Part shown: positions 6,980-59,704 of the stretch, piece by piece
Numbering within the stretch: position 1 is the stretch's first letter
How the letters are laid out: each line of letters begins with the position of its first letter
Assembly: GCA_037042915.1 (NCBI GenBank)
Contig: CM073194.1
Span: 3,224,001-3,288,000, forward strand
Direction of reading: 5' to 3'
Origin: Auricularia sp. M13
Lineage: Eukaryota; Basidiomycota; Agaricomycetes; Auriculariales; Auriculariaceae
DNA: 64,000 nucleotides
Notes under the pieces: generated by a model
Told to the model about the DNA's origin: nothing
What the model saw: only the letters and a program-made list of their open reading frames with translations
The model's database searches: none
Translations under genes and position numbers: made by a program

Positions 6980-9900
6980 TCGAATCGACGGGCGATCGGA
7001 AGCGGGATAAGGTGCTCGGGCGGACTTCGGAGTCGGAAGTCCGGTGACCGGCTGGGCGGAGCTTGAAACGTGTGCCTCCCTTTCTTTTACAGTAATCTCT
7101 GTGTGTGACTGTGACTTCCAGCGTGCGCACTACCTGCCACTGCGCATGTGTGGTTCGCAGAGAGCTACTGCCGACTGGCGCTTCTGCTTGGGCGAAGGAA
7201 GAACGTCGATTTCCTGAAGAGCTTCCATTATTCGAAAAAACAATGTTGCTGCTTTTCACAGACAAGACGAACTGCCGCCGCGGCCGATTTTCTTGCATCG
7301 CATCGCATCGCACCCTGGATTCCGATTCCTTTCGGCGCTTCTCCTGCCCCGTCGCGTTTCTCGATCGCTGACACTGAACTGACTGACAGCCGTGCGTCTT
7401 CGATCTCACTCTGGCTGGCTGGCCACGCTGCCCTGCCACCCGTCGCGACGGCCGCCTATCTCTGCGCTGCGGCTCCTTCAGGTTTTCCCGGCGCGTCCGC
7501 TTCCTCAACGTCTGCCAGTGCGCCCTTAACCACGTAGCCCTCACACTCTGCCATTGATTACGGATGGGACTTCGTGCTACGACCGCTCCGAGTTTTCTAG
7601 TCAAAGCGCGCGCTCTCGCTGGCAGGCTGTGGAAGTAGAGGTGTCCAGCTCCGAATCCCCGTTCTGATTCTGTCACGGTCCACGTGCACCCAAGGCCGTG
7701 CGACCTCTCACTGGCAGCGGCTGCATCATCATCATTTTCAGTGGGGCTTGTCAATGGGGCTTGGACTTGGACTTCTTCCCCACCTCACAAGTTTGAAGGT
7801 TGGCTTCTTCCGTCCGCCCAACAACGACAACCCGACGCAGCGGCTCATCCTGCGTCACCTGACAGCGTCTTCTCCCACACCTCTCACCTCTCACTGCGTC
7901 AATACCTAACTGGTAACTATATCGGTGGCACGCGCGGCACAGGGGAGCGGGGAGCGGCAAACTTGGGGCGAGCGCGTAACGAGGGCCCCCGCACGCGCGC
8001 CTCACTGGATTTTGACCCAACTCCTCTTGACTCTCACTTCAGCGCCCAGTGGCAGGACTCCGTATGTGTGTGTGTGTGTGGGTGGCGCGGGAGTCCTGGC
8101 GTCCGATCCGCGGCCTCACCGCCATTATGTACTGCGAAGGGCGACCGTGACGCTGGCACCGGCACCGTGGCACATGCTCTCATCTCATTCAGCTGGCGGT
8201 GGCCCTCATCCGGGCCGGGCGTCTCCGGTCCTTTCAAGTTGCAACTTGAACGAGTCGTCTTGCTCCGTCATAGGTAGCTCGAGCGTCTCAGGCTTTGCGC
8301 GCAGGCAGCTATTCGCCGGTCTCACGCACTGGGCCTCATCATGACGCCCACAGTGTGCATGTGCGTGCGGCTCTACACTAACTCCCCCCTGGCAGGCCCA
8401 TATGCGGTTTCGCTGCCGAACCAGCCTCATCAGGACACACCAGCTTCACCGCCGCAGCCTGCGCGCGTGATTCTGGTTGGGGACCTGGCCGCCTGAGATC
8501 CCACCCCTCCCTTCTTAACCTCGAGGTCTTGGCTCCTCAGGGCCTGTGCTCGCGATCCACTTGCGTCTGGCCGCTGCTGAATACTCAATACTGTATTGGT
8601 CATTGAATAATGAATCGCAGGGTCTGTTGGGCGGCTCAGTGTACTGTACTTTATTGTAATTTATTTTCGAGTAGCCATCATTCATACTTACTGTAACTAC
8701 ACTCAGAGTAATTCTATCCGAGTCGAACCGATCGTGCACCATGGCCAGCACTCGGACTTCTTTCTCCCCTGCAGTAGCAACGCAACACGCAAGAAGCAGC
8801 AGCCCGAGCGCACCGCCGCTGTTGCGTTACCGTAACGTCCAGCTGCAGCTTTTTATCAGTCTCAGTAATTCAGGTCCCACGGCCAGCTGGCCCGCGACTC
8901 GGACTCCCCTGTGTTTCGTCCCCGCGTTGGCTTGCAGGTGTGGGACGAAGTCAAAGCGTACAGCAATGCAATCTCCGAGCGCACCGCCAGTGTTTCTGCG
9001 AAATTCACCAGCAGCTTCTCATCAGTAATTCAGGTCCCACCAGCGTCCGCCATCCGCCATCCACCAGCTGGCTGGGTACGCCCCGTGTTTCGTCTTCAAG
9101 TTGGCTGCCGGTGGACGAAGTCGAAGCGTAAATGCAATCTGATTAGAGATGCCACTGCGCTCCAGGCTAGAAGAAACGACAGTGGCAGTGGCAGCGCCGC
9201 CGATCCGGGGGGAGGGCAGGCAGGTGCGCATCGCGCGTTCCCACGCGCTGCCGGCCGGACATGTTAATGTTATTCCCACGGGTCTTGAATGGCGCAGCTG
9301 GACTGTGTGTGTCATGACGGGCTGTCGAGGTGCGGAGACTTGCGGTCCTCTCCAGACTGAATGCAGCCGCTCAACAGTTGAAGCCGCACGCCCACGCAGT
9401 CCATCCGTCCATCATTATGCAATCTCCACCTCCCTCCGCCTGTGCCAGCAGCCTGAGAGCCAGCAGAACTACGGCGCTAATGCTGGCAGTGGCACCGCGT
9501 GATGCGATAAGTAAACGAAGGCTGCTTACAAGTGCAAGTGCAAGTTACTGCCTTCACTGCAACATTCGCTCCACACAGTAGTTCCTAGGCCTGCATTTAC
9601 CGCAGCGCGTTCAGGGCACGCAGCGGAACGGTCCACGCTAGCGTTCCAGATAAGGACATCCCGGGCGACGGAAATGCCATTATGGGCACGCCACGGAAGG
9701 CCCGCATTTGGAGATCCCGCTTCAGAAGCCCTCACGCGAGGTGGTGGCGCCCGAAACAGGGTGCGGATAGTCGACAGCGGACAGCGGAGAACCTCCGCGG
9801 TGATGGTTCGAACTTCGATAACTTGTGGATGATTGGGCGGGAATTAATATGTGGCTTCCTACTTCTTCTGTCTGCTGGGCTGCAGCAGGACGAGCGAGAA

Positions 9901-27002: not shown

Positions 27003-27106
27003 GCGCTTAGAATTTCGATCTTATGTGATTATTATAGTAAACGCGCGGCGATGAGCGCTTAGAATTTCGATTTTATGTGATTATTATAGTAAACGCGCGG
27101 CGATGA
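27003..27106. repeat. 52-bp tandem duplication
   Basis: Two adjacent 52-bp units (27,003-27,054 and 27,055-27,106) beginning GCGCTTAGAATTTCGAT differ at one base (C versus T). The unit is AT-rich with a TTATGTGATTATTATAG core. It sits between the convergent 3' ends of the membrane protein and F-box genes, so it may duplicate a polyadenylation or terminator region. Near identity means the duplication is recent. Confidence 0.95.
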
Positions 27107-54285: not shown

Positions 54286-56471
54286 ATGTTGCTGTCTATT
54301 GTCTCGGGCGTCGCTCTAGCTCTTGCGCACGGCGTACTTGCTGCGGCTACAAGGCACAATATGCGCGTGCATGAGCATCGCGCGCACGCGCCGCTTGGCT
54401 TTACCGCCGTTGGAAAGGCCGATGCGCACGCGCCGCTCACGCTTCGTCTCGCACTCAAGCAACGCGACACGCCAGGGCTCATCGATGCGCTGCATCGCGT
54501 CAGCGACCCGGCCAATGCGGATTACGGCAAGCATCTTTCGAAGGAACAGGTCAGTTCTGTCCCCCGGCGATTATTCTTTTTTGCGTATTGCAAAGGTAGC
54601 TAATTCAGCTTAAGGTCGAGGTGTACACGGCGCCGTCTTCAAGCACGCTGGCCGCAGTCAACGCATGGCTCTCCGATCACGGTGTCCAAGCCAAACCGGT
54701 CTCTCCTGCTGGCGACTGGATCGAGTTCACGGTCAACGTCTCGAAAGCCAACGACCTGTTCGACGCGAACTTCACCGTGTTCAAGCACGGGAAGAGCCAG
54801 TCCGAGGGCATCCGCACCCTGCAGTACTCGATTCCCGACAACCTCGGGTCGAAGATCAAGGCGCTCTCCCCTGGCGTCTCCTTCTGGGGTCCCGCCAGTG
54901 CTCCCAAATTCACTCGTCTCGACGCGCGTAGCAACACAGGGCTACTTGGCAAACGACAGCTCGACTGTGGCGTTGTGGTGACGCCGGCCTGTCTCCAACA
55001 TCCCGACCTATACAGCATTCCTGCTACTCCCGCCACCCAGTCCTCGAACCGCCTTGGCGTGACGGGTACGCGGACTGCAGGATCCTCGTATGACTATTGA
55101 TCTTCGCTTCGACAGGCTTCACTGAGCAATTCCCGAACCAAGCTGACTTGACTGTAAGTCAATCAAATTATGGTGATATTCTGTTCATGCGTTGACCACA
55201 TCCAGCAATTTCTCGAACACTATCGGCCAGATATTGGTAACGCGACTTTTACAGTGCAGTCTTTGGATGGAGGCAGTGACCCCCAAGATCCCAATCAGGC
55301 CGGCATCGAGGCAGTGAGTATGTATAGTTTCAGATATATTCTAGCTGACTCTTCGCGCAGGACCTCGACCTCGAGTACACGGTCGGTGTCGCGACCGACG
55401 TCCCCGTCACCTTCATATCCGTTGGACGAAACACCAATGATATTTTTGCTGGCTTTATGGACGTCATTATCAAAGACTGCCTCGGCGAGCAAAATCCACC
55501 GCAGGTACTCACGACGAGTTACGGCTTCAATGAGGACGAGTTCTCGAAGAATATGGCCGAGTGTGTAATGTTCAACATTCCAGTTCGGCAACAGCACTGA
55601 GTCGACTGGCAGCGTTCTGTGTAACGCTTACGCGGCGTGTGGGGCGCGCGGCACCTCCCTCATCTTTGCCTCAGGCGATGGGGGCGTTTCTGGAGTCCAG
55701 GCTGGAACCTGCACGGTGTTTAGGCCGACGTTTCCTGCGGGATGCCCATTGTGAGTGCAGACCGCGGAGTTGGATCCTTCTTTCGATTAAAACCATCCAG
55801 CATCACTTCTGTCGGTGCTACGACTGGTATTCCGGAGACTGCAGCACGTGAGTTTACAAGAGATTCCCGACAGCGAGGATATAGTCTGACGGCTGCGGTA
55901 CCTGCAGCGTTCTCCTCTGGAGGTTTCTCGAATTTTTGGCCTGCTCCCGCCTATCAGACGACCGCCGTGAGCAATTACCTCGCGCAGATCGGCGCGAACA
56001 ACACAGGTCTCTACAAACCGACAGGCCGCGGGTTCCCTGACGTGGCCGCTATGGGCGACAACATCCTAATTGCTTGGAGAACTCTCGAAGGAACGGTTTC
56101 CGGGACGTCGGCCAGCGCACCAATCTTTGCGAGCATTATAGCGCTCATCAACGACCGTCGTGAGGCAGCTGGGAAGTCGCCTCTTGGCTTCCTCAATCCA
56201 TTTCTCTACGCCAATCCCCATGTATTCCACGATATCATCACGGGGAATAATCCTGGCTGTGGTACGTGCCGGTTCTGCTGTCTTGAATACGATGTGGCTG
56301 ATCGACTTTAGGGACGAATGGGTTCTCTGCCTTGGGCGGATGGGATCCCGTAAGTTCCTTTTCGGGAACCTCTTGAATGCTGATTGATTGATTTCTCGTC
56401 AGGTCACCGGTCTGGGAACGCCGGACTTCAGCGCTCTGGCTGCCGCTGCAGGTGTTAAAGGGGCTGTTTAG
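54286..56471 (+). CDS. sedolisin / tripeptidyl peptidase (S53), copy 1
   Basis: Ten exons (54286-54549, 54609-55065, 55116-55153, 55206-55313, 55361-55560, 55613-55750, 55801-55847, 55908-56261, 56312-56349, 56403-56471) give 570 residues with all phases consistent. There is a signal peptide, then a pro-peptide of about 170 residues (RLALKQRDTPGLIDAL, VSDPANADYGKHLS). The S53 catalytic domain includes DLDLEYTVG (Glu and Asp of the triad region), VLTTSYGFNEDE, ARGTSLIFASGDGGV, GRGFPDVAAMG and the nucleophile loop SGTSASAP. The Ca-binding end is FSALGGWDPVTGLGTP. Predicted secreted acid protease removing tripeptides. It is paired with copy 2 at the right edge, which has the same central exon lengths. 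Confidence 0.9.
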
Positions 56472-56832: not shown

Positions 56833-56872
56833 TGAAGAAGTCGTCGTGATGCGAGCGCAACGCAAACGCGCC

Positions 56873-57544
56873 CAAGGGGCATCCCGGATTGCGGATGGTG
56901 AAGACAGCGACTGGATCGGTAACGGGAGGCATTGCGAGTACGGGACGAGCAGAGTGAACTAGAAACTGAACGTCAGAAATCGAACGCGATTGGAAGGAGA
57001 GGAGCAGACAAGTTTCGATGTAGTTATAGTGGATTCTCGTCGCCCGTCTCGCCTTTTATTGCACGGTGCACAGAACACGCCTGTCAGGGCATGCATTATC
57101 AGCAGGACAAAGGGCACGGTAATCTGCACTGCCAACACACACTGGGCGTGCTTTAGAGTGCAAAAATGCTTCTAGAAGTGCTCAACGCCCTGCGCCAGCA
57201 GCGTGCATGGAGCAGTACACACCTAGTCGCACGAGATGCGCAGCAAATCGTGCACGGCAGGCTGCAGGACCTGCATAGCTTGACGACATACTTGCATGGC
57301 TCAGTCATGTAATTAATGGTGCAGGCAACGTTTGAATTTCATGTAGCAAAGTCGTGCAAGTCGTGCAGCAACGCGCAAGAGAGCAGTGGCCAAACTTGGC
57401 CTCACTATCCGGTCGAAATCCGGTGCACCGAGTCGGATGGGCGCCTCGATGTCCGCATTTAGAACCGATCAGCAAACACTTGATTTTCCCACGGGGCCAG
57501 GTTGGTGACATGGAATCACCATCCGCAATCCGGGATGCCCCTTG
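56873..57544. mobile_element. hAT-like miniature inverted-repeat transposable element (MITE), 672 bp
   Basis: The ends are perfect 29-bp terminal inverted repeats (56,873-56,901 and 57,516-57,544, starting CAAGGGGCATCCCGG). They are flanked by a perfect 8-bp direct repeat AACGCGCC (56,865-56,872 and 57,545-57,552), which is a target-site duplication. An 8-bp duplication and ends of the type CA(A/G)GG are hallmarks of the hAT superfamily. The inside has no ORF resembling a transposase, so it would depend on an enzyme encoded elsewhere. Perfect ends and duplication argue for recent insertion. It lies in the 5' region of P450 copy 2, ending 55 bp before the ATG. Confidence 0.88.
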
Positions 57545-57599
57545 AACGCGCCCTCCTGCTGACTTTGCCAGCGCTTTACGGGTCGAAAGACTACACGCA

Positions 57600-59704
57600 A
57601 TGGAGGTAGTCGCCGCGAGCGCTGGCTTGGGCATCGTGCGTAATGGGCTTAGGAGTGGCGCAGGCCGACACACTGACGGCCACCGCGTTGTTTAGGCGTT
57701 GCACCAAATATTCCGGCGCTATGAGCCTACGAGTCTGCGCGTCGTTCTGACAGTGGTCGGCGCGGATGCAGCTCTATACGCCGTCCTGCAACGGCTCGGC
57801 GCTCTTCCCATTAGTTACGCCAGATCCACTGTCCTTGCTCTCGTCGCCGGCACATCGCTCGCCTCGCTCCTGCTTTCTGTCGGCATCTATCGTTTATCTC
57901 CGTGGCATCCTCTTGCGCGATATCCCGGGCCCACCAGCTTCAAACTCACCAAGCTGAGCACGGTTTTTGCTTCATGGCGGGGCGACTACTTCAAGAAGGT
58001 CAAGCGGATGCACGACAAGTACGGCCCCGTCGTGCGCGTGGGTGCGTGTCGCTGTTCTGTGGCGCGTGCTCCATGCAGCATCCTGATCGTCGCCGCCTGT
58101 GCAGCGCCGAACGCTGTCTCGATCAACGACGTGTCTGCCGTGGCCTCCGTCCTCGGCGCCAACGGATTACCAAAGGACAGATGTACGTCCAATCCCATGC
58201 TGTCTCTCCGCTCTTTGCGGGTCACTGAGAAGATCACGATTAGATTACAGAGCGCGCGTCAACGCTCCCGGGACCGGTTCGCTGATTGTGCTCAAGGGAA
58301 ACGAGCACGCACACCGTCGCAAATTGTGGAATCGCGGGCTTGGAAAGGACGCCATTGCCACCCACTCACAGTCGGCAGCGGTTGGTGTCGACAAACTACG
58401 CCACCAACTGGACAAGGCCGCCAGGGTAGGCAGCGCCATCGACATGACCATGTGGCTACGCTTCTACGGATTCGATTTCATGGGAAAATTCGCGTCCGTC
58501 TCAATCTCCTGACGCTCAACAACAGCTGACACATTTCACGCCATGCAGGTTCGATAGAGACTTTGGTTTGATCGAATCGGGTAGTGATTCTCGCGGAGTA
58601 TGGGGCGCAGTCTCCAGGTTCATGCTGTGAGTATCGTTCGCTGATGGTGAAGGACTGCCGTTGAAACACCTTTTTTGAACCCGTAGTGCAGTGGATATCA
58701 TCGCGCACATGCACTGGCTGGGGAACCGCGCAATGTATCTCCCCGGACTCGTCAACGCTCTCGCAGGCATGAGAGGATTCGCCGTCAGAACCGTCCAAGA
58801 TCGGCTCCAGCGCCCGGCCACCAAGTTGGACCTGTGGTACTATTTGGTGTGACAATATGAGACCCAAATTGTACACTCTTTTGCTGATTCGCGTGATCAG
58901 GGCATGGAGGACGATGACTCGAACGATCGGCTTTCCGTCCAACAACTTTCCAGTGAGGGAATTCTCGCAATCATCGCGGGCGCAGACACCTCGGCGAGCG
59001 CGATGACCGTCATTATCTATTTCTTACTTCGCAATCCCGAGTGCTTTGCGAAGGCGCGCGAGGAGGTTGATAACCTCGTCGCGACTGGGTTCACCCCGTG
59101 GAGTAACGCGGATTGCCACGATGCCCTTCCCTACCTCACTGCGTGCATGTGAGCACCGCTGCACTACGTCGTTCCCCTGAATCTACCGAGGCTGATTTCG
59201 ATGTAGGAACGAAACTCTTCGCCTAATGCCTGTCGTCCCGACCAATGGATCTCGCGGCATCCCCGAGGGCAGCGGCGGGAAGATTATCTCGGGACAGTAA
59301 GCGCTAGCATCTCCGAGTCCCAGCTTCCAGCTCTAACGGCCTCCTGCAACGAGTACAGCTTCATCCCCGAGGGCACGGAAGTCTTCGTCTCGCCCTACAT
59401 GCTGCACCACGACCCGCGCTATTTTTCCCCGGAGACGGAGGAGTTCCGACCGCAACGGTGGATCGAACCGGGCTGGAACACAAACCACCTGGCGTTCATC
59501 CCGTTCTCCGCGGGGCCCGCGCAGTGCGTCGGGAAGAACCTCGCGCGCATCGAAATCGTCATGGTCCTCAGCGCGCTCATCCGCCACTATGATATCGCCT
59601 TTGCTCCCGGGAGTCAGCCAGAGAAGTGGTTGGATCATGTTGAGGAACATCTTGTCCTTGATTTGCCTCCTCTGCCACTTATTCTCAAGCTTAGAGACTT
59701 GTAG
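57600..59704 (+). CDS. cytochrome P450 monooxygenase, copy 2
   Basis: Nine exons (57600-57635, 57696-58041, 58105-58182, 58244-58493, 58549-58626, 58687-58846, 58901-59148, 59207-59296, 59359-59704) give 543 residues, in frame throughout. It is a close paralogue of copy 1: exons 2, 3 and 5-9 have identical lengths (346, 78, 78, 160, 248, 90, 346 nt), while exon 4 is 15 nt longer. Motifs are intact: YRLSPWHPLARYPGP, HDKYGPVVRVG, I-helix AGADTSAS, NETLR (ExxR), PQRW and heme loop FIPFSAGPAQCVGKNLA. The first 12-codon exon (MEVVAASAGLGI) mirrors copy 1. Coding capacity is undamaged; regulation may be altered by the transposon directly upstream. PP1 copy 2 follows downstream as in the first pair. 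Confidence 0.9.

Follow-up and report, generated by a model that had tools for sequence, protein, structure and literature searches.

In the hAT system Ac/Ds, non-autonomous copies arise by internal deletion and insertions are flanked by 8-bp target-site duplications, and faulty repair after excision is the origin of deleted copies among both Ds and P elements. The transposon family described here, from the genome of Auricularia sp. M13, is like Ac/Ds in having internally deleted copies and 8-bp duplications, but no hAT-specific feature was found in its coding relative. It also resembles the P element of Drosophila, for which 8-bp duplications, terminal inverted repeats and internally deleted copies beside a full-length one have been described (PMC7776569, PMC8230255). 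The catalytic residues given for the P transposase are D230, D303 and E531, with D339(2)H belonging to the P signature (PMC7776569, PMC8230255), and the transposase studied here is collinearly similar to it, with the same order D, D, D(2)H, E. The Drosophila element, however, is 2.9 kb long with 31-bp ends, against 5.8 kb and 111-bp ends here, a THAP match is missing here, and the similarity lies below single-hit thresholds. The THAP9/P-like elements of zebrafish, as described in PMC7776569, share internally deleted copies, inverted repeats and 8-bp duplications with the present family, but their terminal repeats measure 13 bp, and again no THAP match was obtained here. Among fungi, P elements were reported in 2011 in rusts and, by that account, had until then not been known from any Dikarya (PMC3164196). 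According to the same source, these rust elements (P-1_MLP, P-2_MLP, P-N1_MLP, P-N2_MLP and P-1_PSt) likewise have 8-bp duplications, with autonomous and non-autonomous elements in one genome, which makes them similar to the present family in description.

The stretch of DNA analysed, a window of 64,000 nucleotides on contig C2, was scanned for exactly complementary 12-bp arms separated by <4 kb and enclosed by a direct repeat. The only case with an 8-bp duplicate was a 672-bp element (56873-57544) whose perfect 29-bp inverted ends (CAAGGGGCATCCCGGATTGCGGATGGTGA) lie between two copies of AACGCGCC; one other case had a 5-bp repeat. This reproduces the coordinates, identical termini and exact duplicates given in a preliminary description made from the sequence alone, and its judgement that chance is a very unlikely source also holds, since by arithmetic, rather than by a control run, some 2.6e8 pairs of positions x 4^-37 place the combination of 29-bp pair and 8-bp duplicate far beyond chance. 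On one side of the element lies a peptidase gene, which has a prokumamolisin activation domain, and on the other a cytochrome P450 gene; the piece 55742-56308 on the peptidase side gave no match in a domain search. The features are as follows.

54600-55097: piece of the peptidase gene within which the prokumamolisin activation domain matches
56865-56872, no strand: left 8-bp target-site duplicate AACGCGCC (sequence and window scan)
56873-57544, minus strand: whole non-autonomous element, 672 bp, reversed relative to the coding parent on C4
56873-56901, plus strand: 29-bp terminal inverted repeat, equivalent to the final 29 bp at the 3' end of the parent (window scan and parent comparison)
56900-56901, no strand: junction left by the loss of 5112 bp of the parent, with 2-bp microhomology (parent comparison)
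56900-56932, minus strand: start codon and first 11 codons of the parental transposase, MPPVTDPVAVF (search of the window for transposase)
56900-57544, minus strand: parent positions 1-645 (4 of 645 mismatched), comprising the upstream region, the start codon and the first 11 codons (parent comparison)
57434-57544, minus strand: 111-bp stretch corresponding to the parent's long terminal inverted repeat, whose partner survives as 29 bp (DNA search and parent comparison)
57516-57544, minus strand: 29-bp terminal inverted repeat, the parent's 5' end (window scan and parent comparison)
57545-57552, no strand: right 8-bp target-site duplicate AACGCGCC (sequence and window scan)
58853-59149 and 59207-59701: pieces of the cytochrome P450 gene within which the domain matches fall

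Across the whole window, the search for transposase pieces returned only the 11 codons inside the element, plus three chance matches. At 27003-27106, the window also contains two near-identical 52-bp tandem units (98% matches).

The coding parent (C4:137986-143769) has inverted ends identical over 111 bp and an 8-bp target duplication. Its plus strand carries seven exons separated by GT/AG introns of 44-55 bp, with a spliced frame of 1545 aa free of internal stops, in a gene model made by eye and not from transcripts. Cys/His-rich, zinc-finger-like stretches were seen by eye at both ends of this transposase (L018:5904-6600 and L018:2099-2308) and had no Pfam match. Reversed, the window copy consists of parent positions 1-645 (641 identical) and the last 29 bp of the parent, overlapping by 2 bp, with 5112 bp gone, in agreement with the earlier view of the element as non-autonomous. 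Its inverted repeat measures 29 bp because the deletion fell there, the parental repeat being 111 bp; in the genome DNA search, positions 562-672 of the window element also matched C4:143659-143769 at 100%. The 4 differences in 645 bp suggest that copy and parent split recently. The element is apparently the young cut-and-paste transposon it had been taken for. The deletion may have arisen by faulty repair following excision; the C4 protein, or a close relative, would then act on the retained ends and excise the short copy, which would have been inserted with an 8-bp staggered cut between the peptidase and cytochrome P450 genes.

The end pattern CANGGGGCATCCCGGAT was searched with zero mismatches in the whole genome (52.1 Mb, 14 contigs) and found 14 times, 7 times per strand, the occurrences pairing into seven elements, whereas the reversed pattern, used as a control, did not occur in the 52.1 Mb. 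The exact pattern would miss more diverged ends; the genome DNA search gave no further copy. Membership of a family with shared termini and differing 8-bp flanks, as proposed in the preliminary description, is thereby confirmed, with duplicates in five of the seven elements, all different, but the 'many copies' expected there come down to seven.

C2: window copy, 672 bp, duplicate AACGCGCC
C4:137986-143769: coding parent, 5784 bp, duplicate GCTTGAAC
C3:3979162-3979537: short element, 376 bp, duplicate CCAGCGCC
C10:1546911-1547224: short element, 314 bp, duplicate GCTCTCGT
C1:762118-762253: short element, 136 bp, duplicate GCTGAGAC
C9:1918127-1918461 (L021:628-962): short element, 335 bp, no direct duplicate; 8-bp flanks inverted, GGATCACC / GGTGATCC
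C1:4999174-4999310: short element in a duplicated segment, 137 bp, no duplicate

From the neighbouring letters, the duplicate can also be read as 9 bp at the window copy, the C4 parent and C1:762118, and as 8 bp only at the C3 and C10 copies. The two C1 elements are associated with a segment duplicated in inverted orientation, at least 3.8 kb long and 99.1% identical (C1:4999172-5003000, L022:4173-8001, versus C1:758437-762255, L023:438-4256), which begins no more than 2 bp from the outer end of the short element, so that one breakpoint coincides with a transposon end. The copy at C1:4999174 has an extra 7-bp stretch, CCAATTG, between its other end and the shared flank.

Protein searches revealed 14 further transposase loci in the genome, with 32-55% identity to one query and 25-62% to the other, in each case over the part that matched. 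The closest coding relatives lie on C5 and C8 (5.5 kb), C11 (two copies) and C9 (5.0 kb). Their termini read CAAGGGGCATGCACGAT or CAAGGGGCCCGCACGAT, and their inverted repeats measure some 110-138 bp by an ungapped estimate. Three of these five copies carry 8-bp duplicates (CGCCGACC on C5, GCACGGCC for both on C11, where the second copy is the same insertion within an inverted duplicated segment), and none was found at the C8 and C9 copies. The remaining nine loci showed no inverted ends in the stretches examined. A lone end, CAAGGGGCCCGCACGAT, at C9:2869933-2869949 had no partner end in the same search and possibly marks a truncated copy. In viral contigs, 82 stretches fitted a pattern and none was confirmed as a relative.

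For the window copy, the joined flanks matched only themselves in the whole genome, where no empty site of it was found. The joined flanks of the C4 insertion matched C5:205020-205162 and C2:2351890-2352032 continuously through the junction, with a single copy of the target. In these alignments (query 181-325, junction at 200, 117 of 154 columns) only 20 bases are aligned on the left side of the junction, and both sites give identical alignments; they are therefore not independent empty-site relatives. The C4 insertion point reads GGCTTGAACCCGCG and resembles a tRNA T-arm or Pol III B box; the parent (L018:1479-1486 and 7271-7278) lies inside a repeat whose empty relatives (L068, L069) read GGTTCGAGTCC on the opposite strand and are B box-like. 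Targeting of tRNA genes was considered and dropped, as ARAGORN detected no tRNA in 7 loci, 7 joined empty sites or the 2 empty-site relatives, and Rfam searches gave no match.

The relationship of the coding parent to P transposases was assessed first at the level of domain models, then by comparison of alignments. The full 1545-aa protein had no Pfam match at E <= 10, THAP included, as far as the HMMER filters permit, and six pieces of it, taken exon by exon, yielded two chance hits (E 0.44 and 0.096). To our knowledge, an N-terminal THAP domain is not general to the P superfamily. PF21787 (TNP-like_RNaseH_N, the N-terminal RNase H domain of P-like transposases) matched two of nine family members, with a best E of 0.0074; one member also matched the unrelated PF18096 (E 0.065). 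Genome-wide at E <= 1, all three PF21787 matches fell on family loci (C1, C5 and C10; E 0.08-0.27), but all are below the curated cut-off (best 18.3 bits versus 24.6), and they are not independent, since the loci on C1 and C5 are closely related, with 77% DNA identity. The model for the C-terminal part of the P-type RNase H, PF21789, had four weak matches in the genome, none on the family. Because the cut-offs of PF21787 and PF21789 are not reached, we speak of a 'P-related' family and not of settled membership of the P superfamily.

A further indication comes from the comparison of the family alignment with the Drosophila P transposase (6P5A). The motif order D, D, D(2)H, E is conserved across the 13 core sequences, with the first D in 12 of 13 rows (one gap) and the second D, the D and H, and the E in all 13. 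Using hhalign, the 13-row family alignment gave three collinear alignments with P: family columns 81-176 with P index 5-89, a stretch that reaches and includes the catalytic D230; columns 321-391 with index 177-252, covering the D339(2)H motif and running into the beginning of the insertion domain as far as KQ-V--A; and columns 498-512 with index 368-382 (E531). Each is weak alone (E 0.013, 0.071 and 0.15). With alignment A1, which holds 9 of the 13 core sequences (L025, L029, L033 and L038 were left out as close relatives of kept rows), 2 of 200 shuffles reached the best single score; with the 13-row alignment none of 200 did (27.4 vs 27.6). Chained, the alignments scored 69.7, against a maximum of 44.0 and a mean of 16.8 in 1000 shuffles of P; this test used the 13-row set, from which the program retained 10 rows. 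Control proteins from the same genome, two KDZ and one partial hAT, behaved like shuffles or nearly so. The second catalytic D (P D303) was paired by eye and not by hhalign, and the spacing of the first two D residues differs (121 versus 73). About the first 70 residues of the GTP-binding insertion domain of P align with the family, but the region around D444 does not. A search of PDB with the family profile returned no P entry, only two chance lipases. On balance, the C4 transposase family is probably P-related, although each alignment is weak alone, and we give a probability of roughly 0.8 to the reading, based on sequence comparison, that the window element is a non-autonomous internal-deletion derivative of a divergent P-related cut-and-paste family with its coding relative at C4:137986-143769.

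The best of the other readings is that the coding relative belongs to a separate DDE superfamily with only the general architecture common to P, through convergence or a very deep relation. The lack of any Pfam or THAP match, the long inverted repeats, the absence of a P entry from the profile search of PDB and a length of 1545 aa versus 751 for Drosophila P all fit such a superfamily. We consider it unlikely, as the alignments reach beyond the catalytic positions, to LPS-T--RH before the first D and KQ-V--A in the insertion domain.

Less probable is the 'hAT-like' assignment of the preliminary description, by which the element would be a hAT-superfamily MITE mobilised by a hAT transposase. 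Several features are compatible with it: the 8-bp duplications that characterise hAT occur in the family, though they are not specific to hAT, ends beginning CA(A/G)GGG are compatible with hAT, and a D(2)H-type motif occurs in hAT too. The genome itself holds 25 matches to the hAT dimerisation domain (PF05699) at E <= 0.01, but none of the 25 falls on family loci. The full-length relative that the preliminary description anticipated does exist, as the coding copy on C4, but a hAT identity is not supported, since the protein encoded by this relative, which shares 645 bp and both ends with the window copy, has neither a hAT dimerisation domain nor any other Pfam match, and the family's transposase relates to that of the P element. 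Moreover, the hAT target pattern nTnnnnAn fits none of the seven distinct duplicates, and the partial hAT protein of this genome formed no alignment chain to P (20.0; 8 of 150 shuffles as high). Least credible is a place for the coding relative in KDZ/Zisupton (Kyakuja-Dileera-Zisupton), even though Zisupton generates 8-bp duplications (PMC12730594) and 162 KDZ domain matches were counted in the genome, for none of the matches listed lies on a family locus, the full C4 protein has no match to the KDZ domain PF18758, and two KDZ proteins of the genome formed no chain to P (18.5 and 14.4; 23 and 97 of 150 shuffles as high). These counts of KDZ and hAT dimerisation domains are those of a transposon-rich, basidiomycete-like genome, and the abundance of KDZ together with the short introns points to a mushroom-type fungus.

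Returning to the P-related reading, we found no account of P elements in agaricomycetes among the matches listed from the open-licence literature, which is no proof of absence. We tentatively suggest, at less than even odds, that the parent represents an undescribed P-related or P-sister lineage, with many-exon transposases of ~1,500 residues that lack THAP, have Cys/His-rich ends and are invisible to Pfam. Within one genome this lineage would comprise three or more sub-lineages with long CAAGGGGC... ends, besides relatives that are more distant, and it would give small elements by simple internal deletion. The element itself is ordinary in kind; what deserves further attention is the unclassified transposase family. 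A plausible hAT guess drawn from the 8-bp duplication has been replaced by an actual coding relative, which illustrates that a transposon can be misclassified when judged only by its end letters and the length of its duplication. According to PMC7776569, the insertion domain of the P transposase is the only one known to bind GTP. The transposase family, with its 14 further loci, lies below every Pfam cut-off as far as its members were scanned. A description of the family would help to annotate transposons better in fungi of this kind, and it offers a divergent relative of the P transposase.
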